Shown here: piece after piece, positions 1,103-24,351 of the stretch
Numbering within the stretch: the first letter of the stretch is position 1
Layout: each line of letters begins with the position of its first letter
Source: a virus
Strand: one strand, 5' to 3'
Virus record (IMG/VR): IMGVR_UViG_3300045926_000049
Coordinates: 1-28,114 of that record
DNA: 28,114 nucleotides
Program-made: the position numbers and the translations under genes
Notes under the pieces: model-generated
What the model was told of the DNA's origin: nothing
The model's database searches: none
Seen by the model: the letters and a program-made list of their open reading frames with translations, nothing else

Positions 1103-1308
1103 CGCCGCAATTTCGCGAGGCGTTCGAGGCGATGAAAGCGGCGGCGGACGCCCTGATCGTCGTCAATACGCAGATCAAGCGGATGGGCGATGCGATGCTC
1201 GCCGCGAATGACGATCACGAAGATTTGCGGGAGCACGTCGTCCGCCTGGAAGGGATGATCCTGAATTTGACCGCCGAGGTCCGCCAACTCCGCGAGGGGC
1301 GATCCTGA
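1099..1308 (+). CDS. Small coiled-coil protein, 69 aa
   Basis: The GTG at 1099 overlaps the RHH stop (GTGA), and the TGA at 1306-1308 overlaps the integrase ATG by one base, so this gene sits in a tightly coupled three-gene operon. The whole protein is heptad-like; the C-terminal half, HVVRLEGMILNLTAEVRQLRE, has leucine/valine at a/d positions typical of a dimeric coiled coil. There is no recognisable domain. It might be an accessory factor for the regulator or the integrase, but that rests only on position. Confidence 0.6.
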   Translation: MTPQFREAFEAMKAAADALIVVNTQIKRMGDAMLAANDDHEDLREHVVRLEGMILNLTAEVRQLREGRS

Positions 1309-2720
1309 TGCCGACCATCGACACGAACATCGTCCAAGAGGACGACGGATCGTTCCGCGTGTACGTGCGCGACACGGATCCGATCACCGGCAAATCGAAG
1401 AAGGTCCCGCGGCGATTCCCCATCGGCACCACACTCGCCGCCCTCCAGGCGTACCGCGACACGCGGCGGGCGGTCGCGTTGGCGCCGGAGCCCGAGGCGG
1501 CGGCGGCGACCGGGTTCACCGCCGACGCGCGCCGGTACCTCAAATTGGAGGACGTGAAGGCGATGCCCGCGATCAAATCGCGGACGCGCGAGATCGAGAA
1601 GTGGATCGGGATCTTCGGCGACATGCCGCGCGAGGCGATCGACAAAAACATGATCAACGACGCCTTGTATCGGTTGAAGAAATCCGGCTATGCGGCGGCG
1701 TCGTGCAACCTGTTCCGGACCGCGTTGATGTCGTTGTGGACGACGCTCGACGGGCGGAGCGGCGCCAATCCCGTACGCGATGCCGTCGTGTTCGAGGAAG
1801 CGCCGTTGATGCCGCGCGGCCACTCCTACGATCTCCTGACGCGGATCCTCGACGCGATCCCCGACGAGCGGGGCATCGCGATCGACCGATCGACGCTCTA
1901 TCGCGAACTCTGGAACGAACCCGCCACGACGGTTGCGAGACAGTACGGCGTGTCGTCGCGCTACCTCGGGATGATCTGTACGCGATTGAGTATTCCGCGC
2001 CCGCCGCGCGGGTACTGGACGATGCCCCCGTACGCGCGCGGACCGCGCCCGCCGTTGCACCGTGGCGTCAACGGACGGGCGCCGGAGCTTCTGAAATCGC
2101 GCGCCCGCCTGGAGGTCCTCGCATGGACCGGGATGGATCCCGGCCAATTGGCACGGATGGAACCCGAGCGGGATTTCTCGTTCGCGGGCGGCGGATGGTA
2201 CTCGCCGCCGTTCCGCCGCAAGGGACGGCGCGTCACCCGAGCGCCCCGCCTCCCGGTACGCTTGCCGATGACGCCGGAGGCGCGGGAGGCCTTCCAACGC
2301 CTCCTCGCCGTGGGCGCCGTGGGCGCGTTCAGTGGCGCGTCGTTGCTGCACACGTGGATCCGCGCGCAACGGCGCGTCGAGCGGGCGATCCGCGAGGAGA
2401 GCGGCGACCCGACGTTCGTCCTCCCGCATATCCGGTTGAAGGACGTCCGGCATTCGTTCGGGACCAAGCTCTACGAGGACACGGGCGGCGACGAAAACAA
2501 GGTTGGGCAGATGTTGGGCCACGCGCCCGGTTCCCCGATGACGCGCCGCTATGCCCTCGGCGCGGTCCCCGATGTGCTCCGGCAAGCGATGGCGAAATGG
2601 ACGCCCACGCCGAGGCGAAAGGTTTTTGGCGCGCGACGTCCCGGCGAGGGTCGAGGGGCGGGGGGTACCGCCTCCCCGTCAAAAGGGGCCAAAGTGGTAC
2701 CCCTTACGCGAAATTCCTAG
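1308..2720 (+). CDS. int: Tyrosine-family site-specific integrase with an inserted HTH domain, 470 aa
   Basis: It recombines attP with the bacterial attB, here inferred to be tRNA-Arg(CCU). The C-terminal catalytic half shows KDVRHSFGTKLY (box II Arg 381, then His 382), QMLGHAPGSPMTRRY (His 405, nucleophile Tyr 415) and a basic RRKGRR hairpin (about 303-308, catalytic Lys). At box I the usual TG-R-xxE arginine is replaced: WTGMDPGQL has Asp at 277; some integrases of this type also lack Arg there, as far as I recall. Residues about 75-165 are the SAM-like core-binding domain. Residues about 191-238 hold an extra helix-turn-helix (LYRELWNEPATTVARQYGVS, then PRPPRGYW) splitting the catalytic domain before box I. 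The tail from 435 is Gly/Arg-rich and overlaps the att arm repeats. Start: ATG with GAGGGG upstream and a TGATG overlap. Confidence 0.93.
   Translation: MPTIDTNIVQEDDGSFRVYVRDTDPITGKSKKVPRRFPIGTTLAALQAYRDTRRAVALAPEPEAAAATGFTADARRYLKLEDVKAMPAIKSRTREIEKWIGIFGDMPREAIDKNMINDALYRLKKSGYAAASCNLFRTALMSLWTTLDGRSGANPVRDAVVFEEAPLMPRGHSYDLLTRILDAIPDERGIAIDRSTLYRELWNEPATTVARQYGVSSRYLGMICTRLSIPRPPRGYWTMPPYARGPRPPLHRGVNGRAPELLKSRARLEVLAWTGMDPGQLARMEPERDFSFAGGGWYSPPFRRKGRRVTRAPRLPVRLPMTPEAREAFQRLLAVGAVGAFSGASLLHTWIRAQRRVERAIREESGDPTFVLPHIRLKDVRHSFGTKLYEDTGGDENKVGQMLGHAPGSPMTRRYALGAVPDVLRQAMAKWTPTPRRKVFGARRPGEGRGAGGTASPSKGAKVVPLTRNS
1878..2021 (+). other. Inserted HTH domain within the integrase
   Basis: This segment encodes integrase residues 191-238. 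It matches the layout of a short HTH module seen in stand-alone bacterial proteins: an aromatic/Leu-rich helix (STLYRELW), an xPxTxxARxYGVS helix-turn, a second helix ending in LSIPRPP, and the invariant-looking RGYW end. The flanking residues (ILDAIPDERG before, KSRARLEVLAWTG after) would be contiguous in a standard integrase. The family match is from memory and should be checked with a profile search. Confidence 0.6.
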
Positions 2721-18474: not shown

Positions 18475-20139
18475 TTACCTCCCGAACACAAACATTTGAT
18501 ACTCGGGTTCCGGGTCCGCCTGGAGGGTCGCGAGTTTCCGCGCGAGCAACGCGCCGATCACCGGGTCGATTCGTCCGCGACTCTTCTTCTTCACCGGGTA
18601 GATGTTGTCTTTGCCGTCCCGTTGTACCACAACATTCGAGACACACCACGTCATCAGTGGATGCCCGCCCGCGTCGATGAGTCCGTCGAGGACGTCCGCC
18701 TCGAACTCTTTCGACGGTCCCGACATATGCGCCATCGTTTGCGGGATCTCGACGACTTCGAGTCCCTCGCCCTCCAACTCCGTCGCGAGGTTCCCGGCGT
18801 TGTACGGGTCGATGCCGATTTGTTGCACCGCGAATCGTTCCGTGGCGTCCTTCACGAGATCGAGTACGACGCCCTGATCGATGCGGTTGCCGGGATTCGT
18901 GCGGAGGAACCCTTGCGCGACCCACTCGAGGTATGGGGCGCGGTCGCGATGCGCGCGTTCCTCCAACGTATCGGCGGGCGTCAAACACCACGGGACGATC
19001 CGCCACGACAACCGATCGCCGTTCGGCGGGAACACGAGGACGACCGCGGTCAAATCGATCTTCGATGAGAGGTCGATCCCGAGATAGCACGGTTCGCCGG
19101 CGAGGTCCTCGACGTCCCACGTCGATTGACCCGCGCGCCAACCTTCCATCGACAACCACGGCGCGTCGACGTTGACCCAAATGTTCAACCGTTTCTGTTT
19201 GAACGCCGCCGCCGCCGCGGGCATGTGGATCGCCTTGTTCACGAGGGCGCGGAGGTCCGCCGGTTTCACCGATACGCCGTAGTTCGGATTCGCCTTGCGC
19301 CACGTGCGTTCCTCGCGCCAGTCGTCGCCCTCGTCCGCGTGACTAATGAACGCGAACACCGTGTCGTCGACGAGGACGCGATCGAGGACCTTGCACGCGT
19401 AATCGTGTTGATCGCCGCACGGGGAAACCGGGTCGTTCCCCGCCGTGGTGATCCAGTTGATGACCGGTTGTCTCCTGGCACCGGTCGCCGTTTCCATCAC
19501 ATCGATCATCCCGCGCGACTTCATCGCGTGCGCCTCGTCGATCGTCACGCAATGCGGGTTGAGTCCGTCCGTCGAATCGCGATCGGCGCCGAGAGGTTCC
19601 AGCTTTGAGGCGGTCGCGTCCCGGTGCAAGTTCGCCGTGAGGGAGATGATCCGCGAGCGGAGCCCACTCGACGCAACGAGTTGTTTACAGTCGTTGAACA
19701 CGATCTTGGCTTGCTCGCGTTTGGTCGCGATGCAATACCCCTCGGCGCCGGGCTCCCCGTCGAAAAACGAGAGATACAACGCGACGATCGCCGCCTCCAA
19801 CGATTTGCCGTTCTTGCGGGGGATCTCGTTGTACGCGGTCCGGAACCGGCGGAGCCCGGTCCCGACGTGGACCCACGCGAACACCGATCCGAGTCGAAAG
19901 AGTTGATGCGGTTCGAGGACGATGTACGAGCCCGCCCACTCGCCTTTGTAGTGCTTGAGGCGTTCGGCGAATCGATAGAACCGATCGGCGAGGGGCGGGA
20001 CGAAGCGATACGGAAAGGCGCGGGTTGCCTCGTGCGCGCGATCCCGGAGATGGCGTTCACACGCGAGGCGATGATACTTGCCCACGAGGACGCCACGCCC
20101 GCGGGCCACCTTCCGGGCGTACGCGTCGATGGGATGCAT
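18475..20139 (-). CDS. terL: Terminase large subunit (HK97-like), 554 aa
   Basis: ATP-driven DNA packaging motor with nuclease. The Walker A-like motif NEIPRKNGKS is at residues 104-113. The Walker B motif CVTIDEAHAM is at 197-206. The coupling motif region INWITTAGN is near 228. The RNase H-like nuclease begins with YLGIDLSSKIDLTAV (Asp 356), has QIGIDPYNAGNLATELEGEG in the middle, and has DPVIGALLARKLA late. The length fits the HK97/Terminase_1 family. The gene starts six bases after the small subunit stop. Confidence 0.95.
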   Translation of the reverse strand: MHPIDAYARKVARGRGVLVGKYHRLACERHLRDRAHEATRAFPYRFVPPLADRFYRFAERLKHYKGEWAGSYIVLEPHQLFRLGSVFAWVHVGTGLRRFRTAYNEIPRKNGKSLEAAIVALYLSFFDGEPGAEGYCIATKREQAKIVFNDCKQLVASSGLRSRIISLTANLHRDATASKLEPLGADRDSTDGLNPHCVTIDEAHAMKSRGMIDVMETATGARRQPVINWITTAGNDPVSPCGDQHDYACKVLDRVLVDDTVFAFISHADEGDDWREERTWRKANPNYGVSVKPADLRALVNKAIHMPAAAAAFKQKRLNIWVNVDAPWLSMEGWRAGQSTWDVEDLAGEPCYLGIDLSSKIDLTAVVLVFPPNGDRLSWRIVPWCLTPADTLEERAHRDRAPYLEWVAQGFLRTNPGNRIDQGVVLDLVKDATERFAVQQIGIDPYNAGNLATELEGEGLEVVEIPQTMAHMSGPSKEFEADVLDGLIDAGGHPLMTWCVSNVVVQRDGKDNIYPVKKKSRGRIDPVIGALLARKLATLQADPEPEYQMFVFGR

Positions 20140-20145
20140 GGCGCC

Positions 20146-20658
20146 TCAGTTCACGGGCGATCCCTCGGGCACAACCGGGGGCGCGTCGAATTCCGAGAAC
20201 GCGTCCCCCTCCGGTCCGGGTCCCGATCCCTCGACCATCTTCACGCGCGAGCGACTCGACGGCGTCAACCCGAGTTCGGGCCAGAGCTTGTTACAGTTCG
20301 CGAGGGCCTTCGTCGCGATCGGGAGGAAGGGATTCGTGATCGGGTATCCACTCGGCGCCTTGACGACGAGCCCGAGGATCTTCACTTGCGCCATCGCGTC
20401 GAGATACCGCGCCCACTCCAGGCACACCGCGATCAACGCGGCGCGATCGGCGTGCGTGATCTGTTTGCACGCCCGGAGCATCGGCGCGAGTCGCCTCCAT
20501 TCCGCGACCGCGATCGGGAACGCCTCGATCTCCGGCGGCGGCGTATCGAACGCCGGGTCGAGGGCGGGCGGTTGCGGTTCCGCGGTGTTGATCGGACGAC
20601 GCCCCGCGTTGCCCTCCAAGATTTTTTGCGCCGTGGGTTTCGGTTTGCGCCCGCGCAT
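20146..20658 (-). CDS. terS: Terminase small subunit (P27 family), 170 aa
   Basis: The true start is the ATG at 20658 (MRGRKPKPTAQKILEGNAGR), matching the P27 family opening RGRKP-P----LEGN-G-R. The ATG overlaps the previous stop by one base (TAATG). A helical DNA-recognition region follows (WRRLAPMLRACKQITHADRA), then GYPITNPFLPIATKALANCN and a Pro-rich C-terminus. It recognises the packaging start and loads the large subunit. Confidence 0.9.
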   Translation of the reverse strand: MRGRKPKPTAQKILEGNAGRRPINTAEPQPPALDPAFDTPPPEIEAFPIAVAEWRRLAPMLRACKQITHADRAALIAVCLEWARYLDAMAQVKILGLVVKAPSGYPITNPFLPIATKALANCNKLWPELGLTPSSRSRVKMVEGSGPGPEGDAFSEFDAPPVVPEGSPVN

Positions 20659-20894
20659 TACAACCACCCCCGGATCGTGACCTCGGTCACGGCGATCGCG
20701 ATCGCGTGATCGAAGTCCTTCGCCGCGTAGGGTCGCGCGAACTCCCGCCCGTCCCGCGACAACACTTGCACGGTCCAACGGAACGCGTGCGCGCCGGACG
20801 GTCCGCAACACACGGAGATCGTGAGCCCCGCGCGCCCGATCGCCTCCATCGTCTCGATCGACGTCGCATCAACGGGAAGAGAAGGATGTGTCAT
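20658..20894 (-). CDS. Small hypothetical protein, 78 aa
   Basis: The start is set at the ATG at 20894, which overlaps the methyltransferase stop (ATGA); the longer frame overlaps that gene in antiphase. The text ISVCCGPSGAHAFRWTVQVL then FDHAIAIAVTEVTIRGWL suggests a compact beta-beta-alpha fold. Similar small proteins ending in a WTV...A-AI-EA---GW pattern occur in phages, but none has a known function. Confidence 0.65.
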   Translation of the reverse strand: MTHPSLPVDATSIETMEAIGRAGLTISVCCGPSGAHAFRWTVQVLSRDGREFARPYAAKDFDHAIAIAVTEVTIRGWL

Positions 20895-22114
20895 ACGCTC
20901 GCGACCTTCACCGCGCGCGACCCGGTGAACGCCTCCCATCGATCGATCGTCACCTGGACGAATCGCGGGTCCAACTCGACGCCGCGACACACGCGCCCGA
21001 TCGACTCCGCCACGATCAGCATCGTCCCCGATCCGAGGAACGGATCGACGATGAGTCCGTCCGGCGGTGTGAGTTTCCCGACGACCGGACGCACGACGTC
21101 GACCGGCTTCGGCGACGGATGCCCGCCGCGGTCCTCGCCGGTCACGGTCGACATCTCGATGTGGTCGCGCACGAGTTCCGGTCCGACATAGCGTCCCGGT
21201 CCCGGCTTCCGGAAGATCGCCGCGTGTTCACACGACTTGGCGAGGTACTCGGGAAAACCCGGCGGCGGGTTCGGCTTGACCCACGTGAACAAATTGAGCC
21301 ACACGAGATCACACGCGAGGGCGACCCGCTCGATCGTGCCGATGCCCTGATAGGGTCCCCACGAGGCGAGGTACCCGCCTGGACGCACGACCGCGGCATA
21401 TTCGCCGACCCACACCGCATCGAGGGTTGCATCCCACGGCGCCGTACGTTCGTCGATCGCGGTCCCCCCATAGAACCCCTTGCGCCGATCCGCGGCGTCC
21501 GCGTCGAGGGCGATCCCGTACGGCGGATCGCCCCACACCATCGCCGCCACGTCGCCTCGCATCAACCGGGCGCGGACCTCGGGATCGTGCGCGTTGCCAC
21601 ACGCGACGACGTGACGTCCGCACTCGAACACGTCGCCGGGTTGGATCGACGTGGCTCGAGGATCGGGCACCGCATCGGGATCGGTGCGCCCCTGTCGCGG
21701 GACCACGCCGAACACCGCCGCGAGTTCGCGCGTGTCGAAGAACGGGGCGAGGTCGAGCCCGTTGTCCCGGTCGATCTTCAGTTGCGTGGCGTTCCACTCC
21801 GCCAACTCCGCGGCGCGGTTGTCGTACATGGCGAGGGCGCGTTTCTGTTCGTCCGTGAGTCCCCGTCGACGGACCGCGATCAACTCGTCGCCCGCCGCGT
21901 CGACGATCCGGACCTTGGACAATCCCGCCGCGGTCGCCGCGTCGACGACGCCGTTTCCGGCGAGGACCTCATTCCGTTCGTCGATCACGATCGACCGCGC
22001 CGCGCCGACGCTCCGGAGCGACTCCGCGATCATCGCGCGGTTGCGCGCCGGATGACTCCGCCGGTTCTGCGGATCCGGTGTGAGGTCCGCGATCGTCGCC
22101 GTTGACTCGTCCAT
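20891..22114 (-). CDS. ParB-like N-terminal domain fused to a DNA methyltransferase (N4/N6 type), 407 aa
   Basis: Residues about 1-140 resemble the ParB/sulfiredoxin-like domain found in phage proteins (PDPQNRRSHPARNRAMIAESL, then EVLAGNGVVDAATAAGLSKV). Residues about 155-400 are a class-beta amino-methyltransferase. The catalytic motif is DPPYGI at 196-201. The SAM-binding motif, DPFLGSGT, comes after it at 357-364, and HPSPKPVDV precedes it at 332-340. Such ParB-MTase fusions are common next to terminase genes. It probably methylates phage DNA to resist host restriction or tag packaging DNA; the specificity cannot be read from sequence. A GAGGGGG ribosome binding site precedes the ATG at 22114. 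Confidence 0.93.
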   Translation of the reverse strand: MDESTATIADLTPDPQNRRSHPARNRAMIAESLRSVGAARSIVIDERNEVLAGNGVVDAATAAGLSKVRIVDAAGDELIAVRRRGLTDEQKRALAMYDNRAAELAEWNATQLKIDRDNGLDLAPFFDTRELAAVFGVVPRQGRTDPDAVPDPRATSIQPGDVFECGRHVVACGNAHDPEVRARLMRGDVAAMVWGDPPYGIALDADAADRRKGFYGGTAIDERTAPWDATLDAVWVGEYAAVVRPGGYLASWGPYQGIGTIERVALACDLVWLNLFTWVKPNPPPGFPEYLAKSCEHAAIFRKPGPGRYVGPELVRDHIEMSTVTGEDRGGHPSPKPVDVVRPVVGKLTPPDGLIVDPFLGSGTMLIVAESIGRVCRGVELDPRFVQVTIDRWEAFTGSRAVKVASV

Positions 22115-22135: not shown

Positions 22136-22951
22136 CTAGCGGGTCACGATCCCGGACGCACTCACGGGCGATCCCGTCGCGATCGCCGCCTGGACTGGCG
22201 CCGACGCCCGCGTAACCGGAACCCCAAGGTGCATTAATGACCCGCGCCGCGCGTTGCACACCCGATGGGAGGCGCGCAGATTGGCATCGGTATCCGATCC
22301 CCCGTGTTCGAGCGGCACGACGTGATCGGCGGTCCCCCCGAGGCGGTCATTCGTCGGGATGCGTGGGTCGATCGTGCCGCCACATACCCAACACCGCCAC
22401 TCGTCGCGATCACAGATACGCCGCCAACGACCGACTTCGCGCCGCCCTCCGACCGAGTGCAGTTTCGCGGACCGTAAGACGCTCGACCGCCTCCGCGAGA
22501 CTCGGCGTTGTTCCGTGGGTCCGATCGGGAGGCGGAATTGCCGCCCTCGTGACGCATCAATCCGACGACGCCGCGCCCGTCGCTTGCGGAGCCCATCTTG
22601 GCGGAGACACCATCGGCAAACCCCTCGCGCGTTACGGGTCATCGGGCGGCGACACCGCGCGCACGGTTTGTATCGTCCCGGTTGCCCCTTAATCCGTTGT
22701 GGTTCGCACTCACGACAAGACAGAGGACGACGACCAAAACCGCTATACACGAAGGCCCGGCAACAGAATCGACACGTCGCTTCTCGTTGCGGCGGTCGTC
22801 GCCGGATTGGATTCGGATTCAATATCCGTCGCTCTGCCGCGCGGAGTCGTCGGTTGCGTCGTTTTTCTTCCCGTCGTCGGCATCGCTCAGAGCAATACAC
22901 ACGAGTGAGGCGTCCAGGCATCGGGATCGGCTTGCCGCAACTCAAACACAC
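22136..22951 (-). CDS. Cys-rich zinc-finger HNH endonuclease, 271 aa
   Basis: The GTG at 22951 is well supported by AAGGGAGGG upstream. Three Cys clusters (C2/C5 with C20/C24; C60/C63 with C79/C82; C97/C100 with C112/C115) look like zinc ribbons. A very basic Arg-rich linker follows (about 118-178). The C-terminal HNH domain comes next: CDRDEWRCWVCGG (C187/C190), ADHVVPLEHGGSD (D209, H210) and RASHRVCNARRGS (H229, C232). HNH enzymes next to terminase genes assist cohesive-end cleavage in HK97-type phages; a homing endonuclease is the alternative. The strongly Arg-rich composition differs from most neighbours. Confidence 0.85.
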   Translation of the reverse strand: MCLSCGKPIPMPGRLTRVYCSERCRRREEKRRNRRLRAAERRILNPNPIRRRPPQREATCRFCCRAFVYSGFGRRPLSCRECEPQRIKGQPGRYKPCARCRRPMTRNARGVCRWCLRQDGLRKRRARRRRIDASRGRQFRLPIGPTEQRRVSRRRSSVLRSAKLHSVGGRREVGRWRRICDRDEWRCWVCGGTIDPRIPTNDRLGGTADHVVPLEHGGSDTDANLRASHRVCNARRGSLMHLGVPVTRASAPVQAAIATGSPVSASGIVTR

Positions 22952-23117
22952 GAGTCGGACCCTCCCTTAATCGAAAAACGCGAATATTTGAACTTGCCGC
23001 CTGGCCGGTTCCGAGCACTGAAAAACTTACACACTTTTTCTACCCCCCACGGGCGCCGGGACGCGCCCCACTCGCGCACGTCGACGCGCGATCGTGTTCA
23101 CGATCGCGATCGTGACG
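22952..23117. promoter_or_regulatory. Palindrome-rich intergenic region (candidate cos/pac or control site)
   Basis: The largest gap in the minus-strand operon between two HNH genes. It holds an AT-rich tract (about 22970-23040, including AAAAACTTACACACTTTTT-type text), a CCCCCC run, and at its right end a cluster of palindromes. These are CGCGATCGTG-tt-CACGATCGCG (23087-23108), the overlapping 18-base perfect palindrome TCACGATCGCGATCGTGA (23098-23115), and GTGACGTCAC (23112-23121). No promoter hexamers can be assigned with confidence. The place, just upstream of the terminase cluster and next to HNH genes, makes a packaging or regulatory role possible. Confidence 0.5.
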
Positions 23118-23298
23118 TCACGGAATCGCCAACGATCCAGTTGACGCCACCACGCGGATCAACCAAAGCAGTACGAGGATCACGACGATCGCGATCACGA
23201 CTCGCTTGTAGGATCTCGGGCATGGGGATATACGAGGTTGCCAACCACAACGCGAACCCAATGACGACGAGGACGACAAGGATCGTTAGGATGCTCAT
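23118..23298 (-). pseudogene. Two-helix membrane protein, second helix in +1 frame
   Basis: The ATG at 23298 (ribosome binding site GGGGAGG, ATGA overlap with the upstream HNH gene) starts MSILTILVVLVVIGFALWLA then TSYIPMPEI, a first membrane helix ending in the YIPMP turn of a family of tiny two-helix membrane proteins. The 0-frame then turns into charged, unlikely sequence and stops at 23098. Skipping one base at 23211-23212 (ATC-C-TAC) restores YKRVVIAIVVILVLLWLIRV, an ideal second helix, ending at 23118 (59 aa in all). It may be a sequencing error, a real frameshift mutation or a programmed +1 shift. A holin-like role is possible but unproven. Confidence 0.65.
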
Positions 23299-23717
23299 GC
23301 GAGTGTGCCTCCCCCTCGACGAGTGACCACGACGGGACGGCGGACCCTCGCCCCTCGCCCGTCAACACGCTTGCCCTTGCGGGTATTGCACGACGTGCAG
23401 AGCGACTGATGGTTCCTGGGATCGAACATGGCACCGCCATCGGCCAACGAAAGAATGTGGTCGGTCACGGTCGCCGGGACCCTCCCCCCCTCCCGTGTAC
23501 AGAACGAGTGCTCCCCGTGGAACGACCCGTCCCCCCGCTGCCCGCAGAATGGGAAGCGTCGGAGCCACGCCCGAGAGTACCGCCCCCACTCGGCGTCGTA
23601 CCCCCTCTCGATCGCGGTGCCCCGCGCGCGGTCCTCCCGCCGGGCACACGCCCCGCATCGACGCCCACGATAGAGGCGGTGACACTGCGGACACGGGCGA
23701 GGGGGAGCAACCGCCAT
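23295..23717 (-). CDS. HNH endonuclease, 140 aa
   Basis: N-terminal zinc finger CPQC...CGAC (C9/C12 and C21/C24), then RGYDAEWGRYSRAWLRRFPF (the usual RGY-xxW helix), and the HNH core VTDHILSLADGGAMFDPRNH followed by LCTSCNTRKGKR. This is the common phage HNH of the terminase neighbourhood, which in HK97-type phages works with the large subunit to cut concatemers. The start ATG at 23717 immediately follows the previous gene's TAA (TAAATG). The stop overlaps the membrane protein start. Confidence 0.9.
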   Translation of the reverse strand: MAVAPPRPCPQCHRLYRGRRCGACARREDRARGTAIERGYDAEWGRYSRAWLRRFPFCGQRGDGSFHGEHSFCTREGGRVPATVTDHILSLADGGAMFDPRNHQSLCTSCNTRKGKRVDGRGARVRRPVVVTRRGGGTLA

Positions 23718-24050
23718 TTACTTGCCTCGACTCCACATCCAGGCGCCTGCCGTGCGGAACTCTCCATTGCAAACCGATCGCGCCATCCACGCGCATTCGA
23801 TATAGGCGAGTCCGGACCACTCGCCGAGGGTCAACCACACGGGACGATTCGTACTGAGGCGGCGAGTATCCGCGTTCCTGAATACGGCGGTAAACGTTCC
23901 CATCGCATCCCGTAATCCGGGGATCCCGGAACTATTGATGCGTTGAGTCAACAGGATCTCCCACGTCATCACGTCCGCCAATCGACGCCCTCGACACGAG
24001 GCGCGAATCGCACCGCACGGAGCGATCACCGGCTTCGCTTTGCGAGGCAT
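23718..24050 (-). CDS. Hypothetical protein, 110 aa
   Basis: The start is taken at ATG 24050 (MPRKAKPVIAPCGAIRASCR) because the part upstream is Arg/Ser-rich shadow sequence. The text DVMTWEILLTQRINSSGIPG, AMGTFTAVFRNADTRR and PVWLTLGEWSGLAYIE, then GEFRTAGAWMW, has conserved-looking Trp residues and is protein-like. The base use is less extreme in GC than most neighbours. The stop TAA abuts the HNH ATG. I do not recognise the family. Confidence 0.6.
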   Translation of the reverse strand: MPRKAKPVIAPCGAIRASCRGRRLADVMTWEILLTQRINSSGIPGLRDAMGTFTAVFRNADTRRLSTNRPVWLTLGEWSGLAYIECAWMARSVCNGEFRTAGAWMWSRGK

Positions 24051-24160
24051 CCGAAACAACCCATCGCCGGATTGGTGGCATACACCGTGCGCCGACAACA
24101 CAACCACGACACGAGGACCGCGCCGAGTTGGCGATCGTCGTACGAGGGACCGCCGGTCAT
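24026..24160 (-). CDS. Possible tiny Cys-containing protein, 44 aa
   Basis: The ATG at 24160 overlaps the previous stop (ATGA), the standard coupling here. The frame encodes MTGGPSYDDRQLGAVLVSWL then CCRRTVYATNPAMGCFGCLA and ends RSR. It fills the gap between two better-supported genes and overlaps the next by 25 bases. The CC plus CxxC pattern could bind a metal. It is too short for recognition, so it is listed with low confidence. Confidence 0.4.
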   Translation of the reverse strand: MTGGPSYDDRQLGAVLVSWLCCRRTVYATNPAMGCFGCLAKRSR

Positions 24161-24351
24161 ACGCGCCGGACCTCGCGCCGGATCTCCGGATGATCGGCAA
24201 GCCACTCCGTGATCGCCCGTTGGACCGCGGACGCGAGACTATGCACGAGGCGTTCATAGTCGGCGGCGGTGTCGACCGTGTAGGGTTCCCCGCGCAAGAT
24301 GTACTCGGCGAGGTGTGCCACGTCCGCGCCGTACTCGGTGGGCACGGTCAC
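24157..24351 (-). CDS. Small helical protein, paralogue of the gene at 27600-27806, 64 aa
   Basis: The GTG at 24351 overlaps the KGG-protein stop (GTGA); the longer frame crosses that gene and is rejected. The product MTVPTEYGADVAHLAEYILR then YERLVHSLASAVQRAITEWL aligns by eye with the 68-aa protein encoded at 27600-27806 (LAEHFL ... RRVESLAIAIQRAVEAW). The conserved LAE, SLA-A-QRA-EW pattern marks a shared fold. The function is unknown. Duplicate small genes of this sort suggest gene duplication in the early region. Confidence 0.7.
   Translation of the reverse strand: MTVPTEYGADVAHLAEYILRGEPYTVDTAADYERLVHSLASAVQRAITEWLADHPEIRREVRRV

Follow-up and report, generated by a model that had tools for sequence, protein, structure and literature searches.

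The window analyzed here, meaning the whole stretch of DNA, corresponds to a 28,114-base virus record in IMG/VR, has 65% G+C, and gave no match when phage records were searched by DNA similarity. Its late genes are encoded on the minus strand, and the capsid and portal genes come after the gene for the large terminase subunit (TerL) in this late cluster. The original prediction had placed three inverted repeats at the edge of the only large gap in this cluster, between two HNH genes. All three repeats proved to be exact, within 23087-23122, and the two HNH genes are present on either side, but the gap itself is partly filled by a small ORF. This ORF leaves only about 22952-23097 truly empty, and its 3' end overlaps with the palindromes (Table 1).

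The small ORF is membrane-protein-like and shows an apparent frameshift near 23200, with its hydrophobic second half (VVIAIVVILVLLWLIRVV) lying in the next frame and ending at 23118. Since a second contig of the same phage (L083) aligns there without gaps, the frameshift is not a one-off assembly error. Elsewhere in the window, a perfect 12-bp inverted repeat (AAAAACCCCTGTATTGACAGGGGTTTTT) with A- and T-runs lies between the integrase gene and the end of the late genes (2789-2816), and looks like a two-way terminator.

Table 1. Positions of genes and of observed or predicted sequence features in the window
Feature	Position	Strand	Remark
Integrase gene	1308-2720	+	
Terminase large subunit TerL (phrog_9)	18475-20139	-	
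Terminase small subunit TerS (Terminase_4 / phrog_83)	20146-20811	-	
ParB-like and N6/N4 DNA methyltransferase gene	20891-22114	-	between probable cos and terminase
HNH endonuclease gene	22136-22951	-	left-end side of probable cos
Left-end G-rich element AAGGGAGGG	22960-22968	-	counterpart of GGGGGG after CGCGAAATT in relatives
CGCGTTTTT, probable small-terminase binding element	22974-22982	-	+17 to +25 from predicted left end; by position only
Predicted 10-nt 3' cohesive overhang CCGGCCAGGC	22999-23008	-	left genome end predicted to begin at 22998
Right-end element GTGGGGGGTAGAAAAAGTGTG	23030-23050	-	counterpart of GGGGGGTNAAATCT in relatives and HK97; profile match
Palindrome cluster	23087-23122		right-end side, outside conserved core; probably spacer
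Inverted repeat, 10-bp arms, spacer TT: CGCGATCGTG-TT-CACGATCGCG	23087-23108		
18-base palindrome TCACGATCGCGATCGTGA	23098-23115		
Third palindrome GTGACGTCAC	23112-23121		by inspection widens to the 12-mer CGTGACGTCACG (23111-23122)
Small ORF, 66 codons	23098-23298	-	
HNH endonuclease gene	23295-23717	-	right-end side of probable cos, position of HK97 gp74

Contig ends and a shared motif in the gap

Relatives of the window were sought by TerL, and the best 80 of 206 matching stretches were kept. One of these (L004) comes from the same phage and matches the window leftward from 22998 over 14,521 of 14,522 bases, the first base being the only mismatch; this match also begins exactly 16 nt before CGCG. 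L083, which was found by the palindrome pattern, matches from 23001 rightward for 5,114 bases with a single mismatch. The two contigs stop 3 bases apart on opposite sides, and their IMG/VR names carry different sample numbers. Fixed genome ends at one place are thereby represented by two contig ends, 22998 and 23001, both of metagenome contigs and not of virion DNA. A further search with the neighboring gene (23718-24257) gave no additional right ends, as one match (L359) was the L083 contig itself and another (L360) stops inside the gene.

The same spacing recurs in divergent relatives, and the contigs of three of them (L002, L045, and L069) open exactly 16 nt before CGCGAAATT and a G-run. 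A scan of viral contigs with the pattern CGCGAAATTN{3,9}GGGGGG matched at least 120 stretches, and the 80 among the matches listed, together with 10 TerL-family loci, gave 90 motif loci. The contig starts exactly 16 nt before the CGCG of the motif in 14 of these 90 loci and 17 nt before it in one, with 18 starts falling within 40 nt. TerS could be recognized in 51 of the 80 listed loci, and was downstream on the same strand in all 51. In the remaining 29, nothing matched the TerS protein of the window, in some because the contig stops and in others probably because the motif matched by chance. When genome contigs were searched with the motif, the titles of the matches came from many phyla and, judged by these titles, the matches are mostly due to chance. 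In the TerL-family set, 67 contigs start upstream of TerL; 8 of these have CGC[GA] at offset 16, more than at any other offset from 5 to 39, and 6 have it at offset 17.

Of the 44 relatives whose sequence crosses the site, 37 have the trinucleotide ACC, which opens the putative overhang, at a distance of 26 or 27 nt before CGCG; ACC stands elsewhere in 4 and is absent from 3. In the window this distance is 26 nt, the order being GGAA, CCGGCCAGGC, GGCAAGTTCAAATATT, and CGCG. Alignment across relatives yields a testable consensus: GGGG..AAATCT, ACC, 26-27 nt to CGCGAAATT, and then GGGGGG. Moreover, two long contigs, of 39,965 bases (G002) and 44,119 bases (G003), have one half of the motif at each end and finish with the G-run half, as expected of a linear virion chromosome. 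Opposite ends were inspected for 16 contigs in all; only a minority resembled the right end of cos, and most of the others break elsewhere.

A profile built from the 44 relatives, with the window excluded, found its best match in the window at 23055-22979 (E 0.0044, score 11.6), a score that was reached by 6 of 200 shuffled windows. The case for cos weighs on the contig ends. Several observations count against a cos site: the window carries CGCGTTTTT in place of CGCGAAATT and GGGAGGG in place of GGGGGG; it runs through the site and so is not a virion-end contig; L004 opens with a base that differs from the window; and the L083 end at 23001 retains 8 of the 10 predicted overhang bases, when a contig with a trimmed 3' overhang should end at 23009. 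The weakness of the profile when taken alone, and the many reasons for which metagenome contigs break, would fit an assembly accident at 22998/23001 in a gap that is not a cos site. We consider this very unlikely, given ends so close together that were reached from opposite sides in differently numbered samples, and at an offset that recurs among the motif loci.

Based on the contig ends, the position of the motif, and the gene context, with TerS and TerL on one side of the site and an HNH gene on the other, we conclude that the gap very probably holds an HK97-type cos site on the late (minus) strand, at about 22960-23050. This upholds one part of the original prediction, which had named a cos/pac site as one candidate here; its other candidates, an operator and a replication site, have no support. 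The palindromes themselves do not coincide with the predicted cleavage site and are not conserved at the cos of relatives. From the contig ends, the motif, and its position, which are observations, we infer cleavage, the length and polarity of the overhang, and the roles of the proteins as follows. The small terminase would bind CGCGTTTTT, and the large terminase, aided by an HNH nuclease, would cut the strands 10 nt apart, at 22998/22999 and 23008/23009. Such a staggered cut would leave the 10-nt 3' overhangs of CCGGCCAGGC that we predict by analogy with HK97 and phiSLT. The left virion end would then comprise the second HNH gene, the methyltransferase, the terminase, and the head genes, and the right virion end the first HNH gene, the small ORF, and the palindromes.

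Two TerL-family loci showed a strong profile match on the strand opposite to their terminase genes (L011, 7810-7904, E 7e-9; L029, 9184-9281, E 6e-10), and another contig (L009) opens at the right end that corresponds to this match. In L011 and L029, packaging may run with the opposite polarity with respect to the terminase genes.

Possible roles of the palindromes

Inverted repeats with arms of at least 10 and a spacer of at most 12 number 3 in the window, versus 1.5 +/- 1.3 in 40 dinucleotide shuffles. Base composition predicts 9.6 copies of CGATCG and 90 of GATC, and the window contains 109 (11x) and 431 (4.8x), so palindromes built on CGATCG are cheap in this window. Taken singly, the palindrome lengths are ordinary for such CGATCG-rich DNA. 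It is the clustering, not the lengths, that is unusual and unexplained. Only two repeats in the window have arms of at least 9 and a spacer of at most 2, and both lie within the same 29 bases and overlap. Neither 300 Markov-simulated windows nor TerL-family loci totaling 878,104 bases contained a similar overlapping pair, by a statistic chosen after the pair had been seen. The 878,104 bases comprise 74 of the 80 TerL-family loci, leaving out L004, L009, L028, L033, L043, and L045, which are the same phage or likely duplicates or close relatives of other loci. Because a repeated half-word is common to both repeats, the pair counts as one event and not two. Three alternating half-sites (CGCGATCGTG) stand at 23087, 23099, and 23105.

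Measured from the predicted left end at 22998, the palindromes lie at a distance of 89 to 124 bases, on the right-end side and outside the conserved core. This position, the rarity of such an overlap, and the presence of a GATC-rich palindrome (GATCGATCGCGATCGATC) beside the cos of one relative (L036) would suit an accessory part of cos or of packaging, namely a right-end element to which a protein of the host or the phage binds. Conservation of the palindromes in related phages had been named as a check on the original prediction, and the relatives did not bear it out. In 42 relatives the 200 nt from -275 to -75 could be examined, and only 2 of these (L036 and L124) have a repeat with arms of at least 9 there, against 0.74 +/- 0.83 expected, and a second comparison of loci with the full 200 nt found one in 1 of 16 (L036). 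Furthermore, an exact search of viral contigs for the 22-nt palindrome returned, besides the same phage (L083), two other loci (L082 and L084), both lacking a cos profile match at E <= 0.5. We therefore regard an accessory role as rather unlikely.

An operator, in which the overlapping half-sites would be bound by a dimeric regulator, could account for the three alternating half-sites (CGCGATCGTG) and is, in our view, unlikely: a scan of 22700-23500 for the sigma-70 consensus gave no promoter-like site, the relatives hold no conserved counterpart, and CGATCG is in excess throughout the genome. A transcription terminator or RNA hairpin closing the right-end operon would use the 9-10 bp stem that can form in late-strand RNA just after the small ORF. 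This is highly unlikely, as there is no T-run, the search by intrinsic-terminator criteria found 0 terminator-like sites, and shuffled sequences fold as well as the late-strand RNA does (z -0.19). Rather than any of these roles, we favor the view that the palindromes are probably unconserved spacer, most likely without a role in cutting. The proximity of palindromes to a terminase does not, on its own, make them a packaging signal.

GATC is concentrated at the packaging site of phage P1, whose pac site contains methylated GATC sites. Beside cos, GATC occurs 9 times per 200 nt in the window (3.1 expected) and 9 times in L036, and most relatives are not so rich. We rejected a P1-type GATC concentration as a general feature beside cos, as 42 relative loci together had 58 occurrences against 56.5 expected. 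The GATC-rich palindromes could conceivably form a switch, at which methylation or protein binding would decide whether cos is cut, perhaps through the phage's own ParB-like/methyltransferase protein encoded beside the site; we hold this to be extremely unlikely. In L036, the palindrome is found 77-95 nt upstream of CGCG, and the predicted overhang (CCGGCCTGGC) is one base off CCGGCCAGGC.

Comparison with known cos sites

An HK97-type cos is an already known kind of site, here in an uncultivated phage. The likely ends of its genome could be fixed from sequence alone, and metagenome contig ends, when aligned across relatives, reveal the cos of HNH/Terminase_4 phages nearly to the base. A literature search at the level of listings found no metagenome-wide cos consensus, which is not proof of absence.

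The records of Pseudomonas phage vB_PstS-pAN and Marinobacter phage AS1 open just before GAAATT/AAAATT...GGGGGGG and TerS and close after an HNH gene, these ends being the depositors' choice; AS1 gave a weak profile match (E 0.3). Staphylococcus phage phiSLT (AB045978) has an annotated 10-nt cos, CCGGAGAGGC, that is identical at 8 of 10 positions to the predicted overhang of the window, and it is likewise followed by CGCGG...AAATT and GGGGGTC. Unlike in the window, 14 nt and not 16 separate the overhang from CGCG in phiSLT, and its host is different. The profile did not convincingly find the cos of phiSLT (E 0.43, wrong strand).

For HK97, PMC11331095 describes a cos with a 10-nt 3' overhang, a TerS that needs positions 15-29 from the cut and recognizes G21 and the adjacent A-tract, and stimulation of cutting by the HNH protein gp74. 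PMC9410871 agrees on gp74 and gives the overhang as both 10 and 12 nt. The HK97 record (AF069529) ends with GGGGGGGGATCAAATCTTCAAAACCTTTGCCCCAAATGACCGCCGCCAAA and starts with GTTTGAATTTAACGCTAACCCGATTTTTTT, and our profile recovered its cos with an E of 1.4e-5, the overlap being in the right half only. The window differs from HK97 in having two HNH genes and a methyltransferase gene around the probable cos, and CGCGTTTTT at +17 where HK97 has CCCGATTTTTT at +19. By position only, CGCGTTTTT at +17 to +25 falls inside the +15 to +29 span of the HK97 TerS site, which in HK97 lies beside an A-tract in a manner similar to the window. HK97 further resembles the window in its right end, GGGGGGGGATCAAATCT...GACCGCCGCC, and in the placement of an HNH gene (gp74) at the right end and the terminase at the left.
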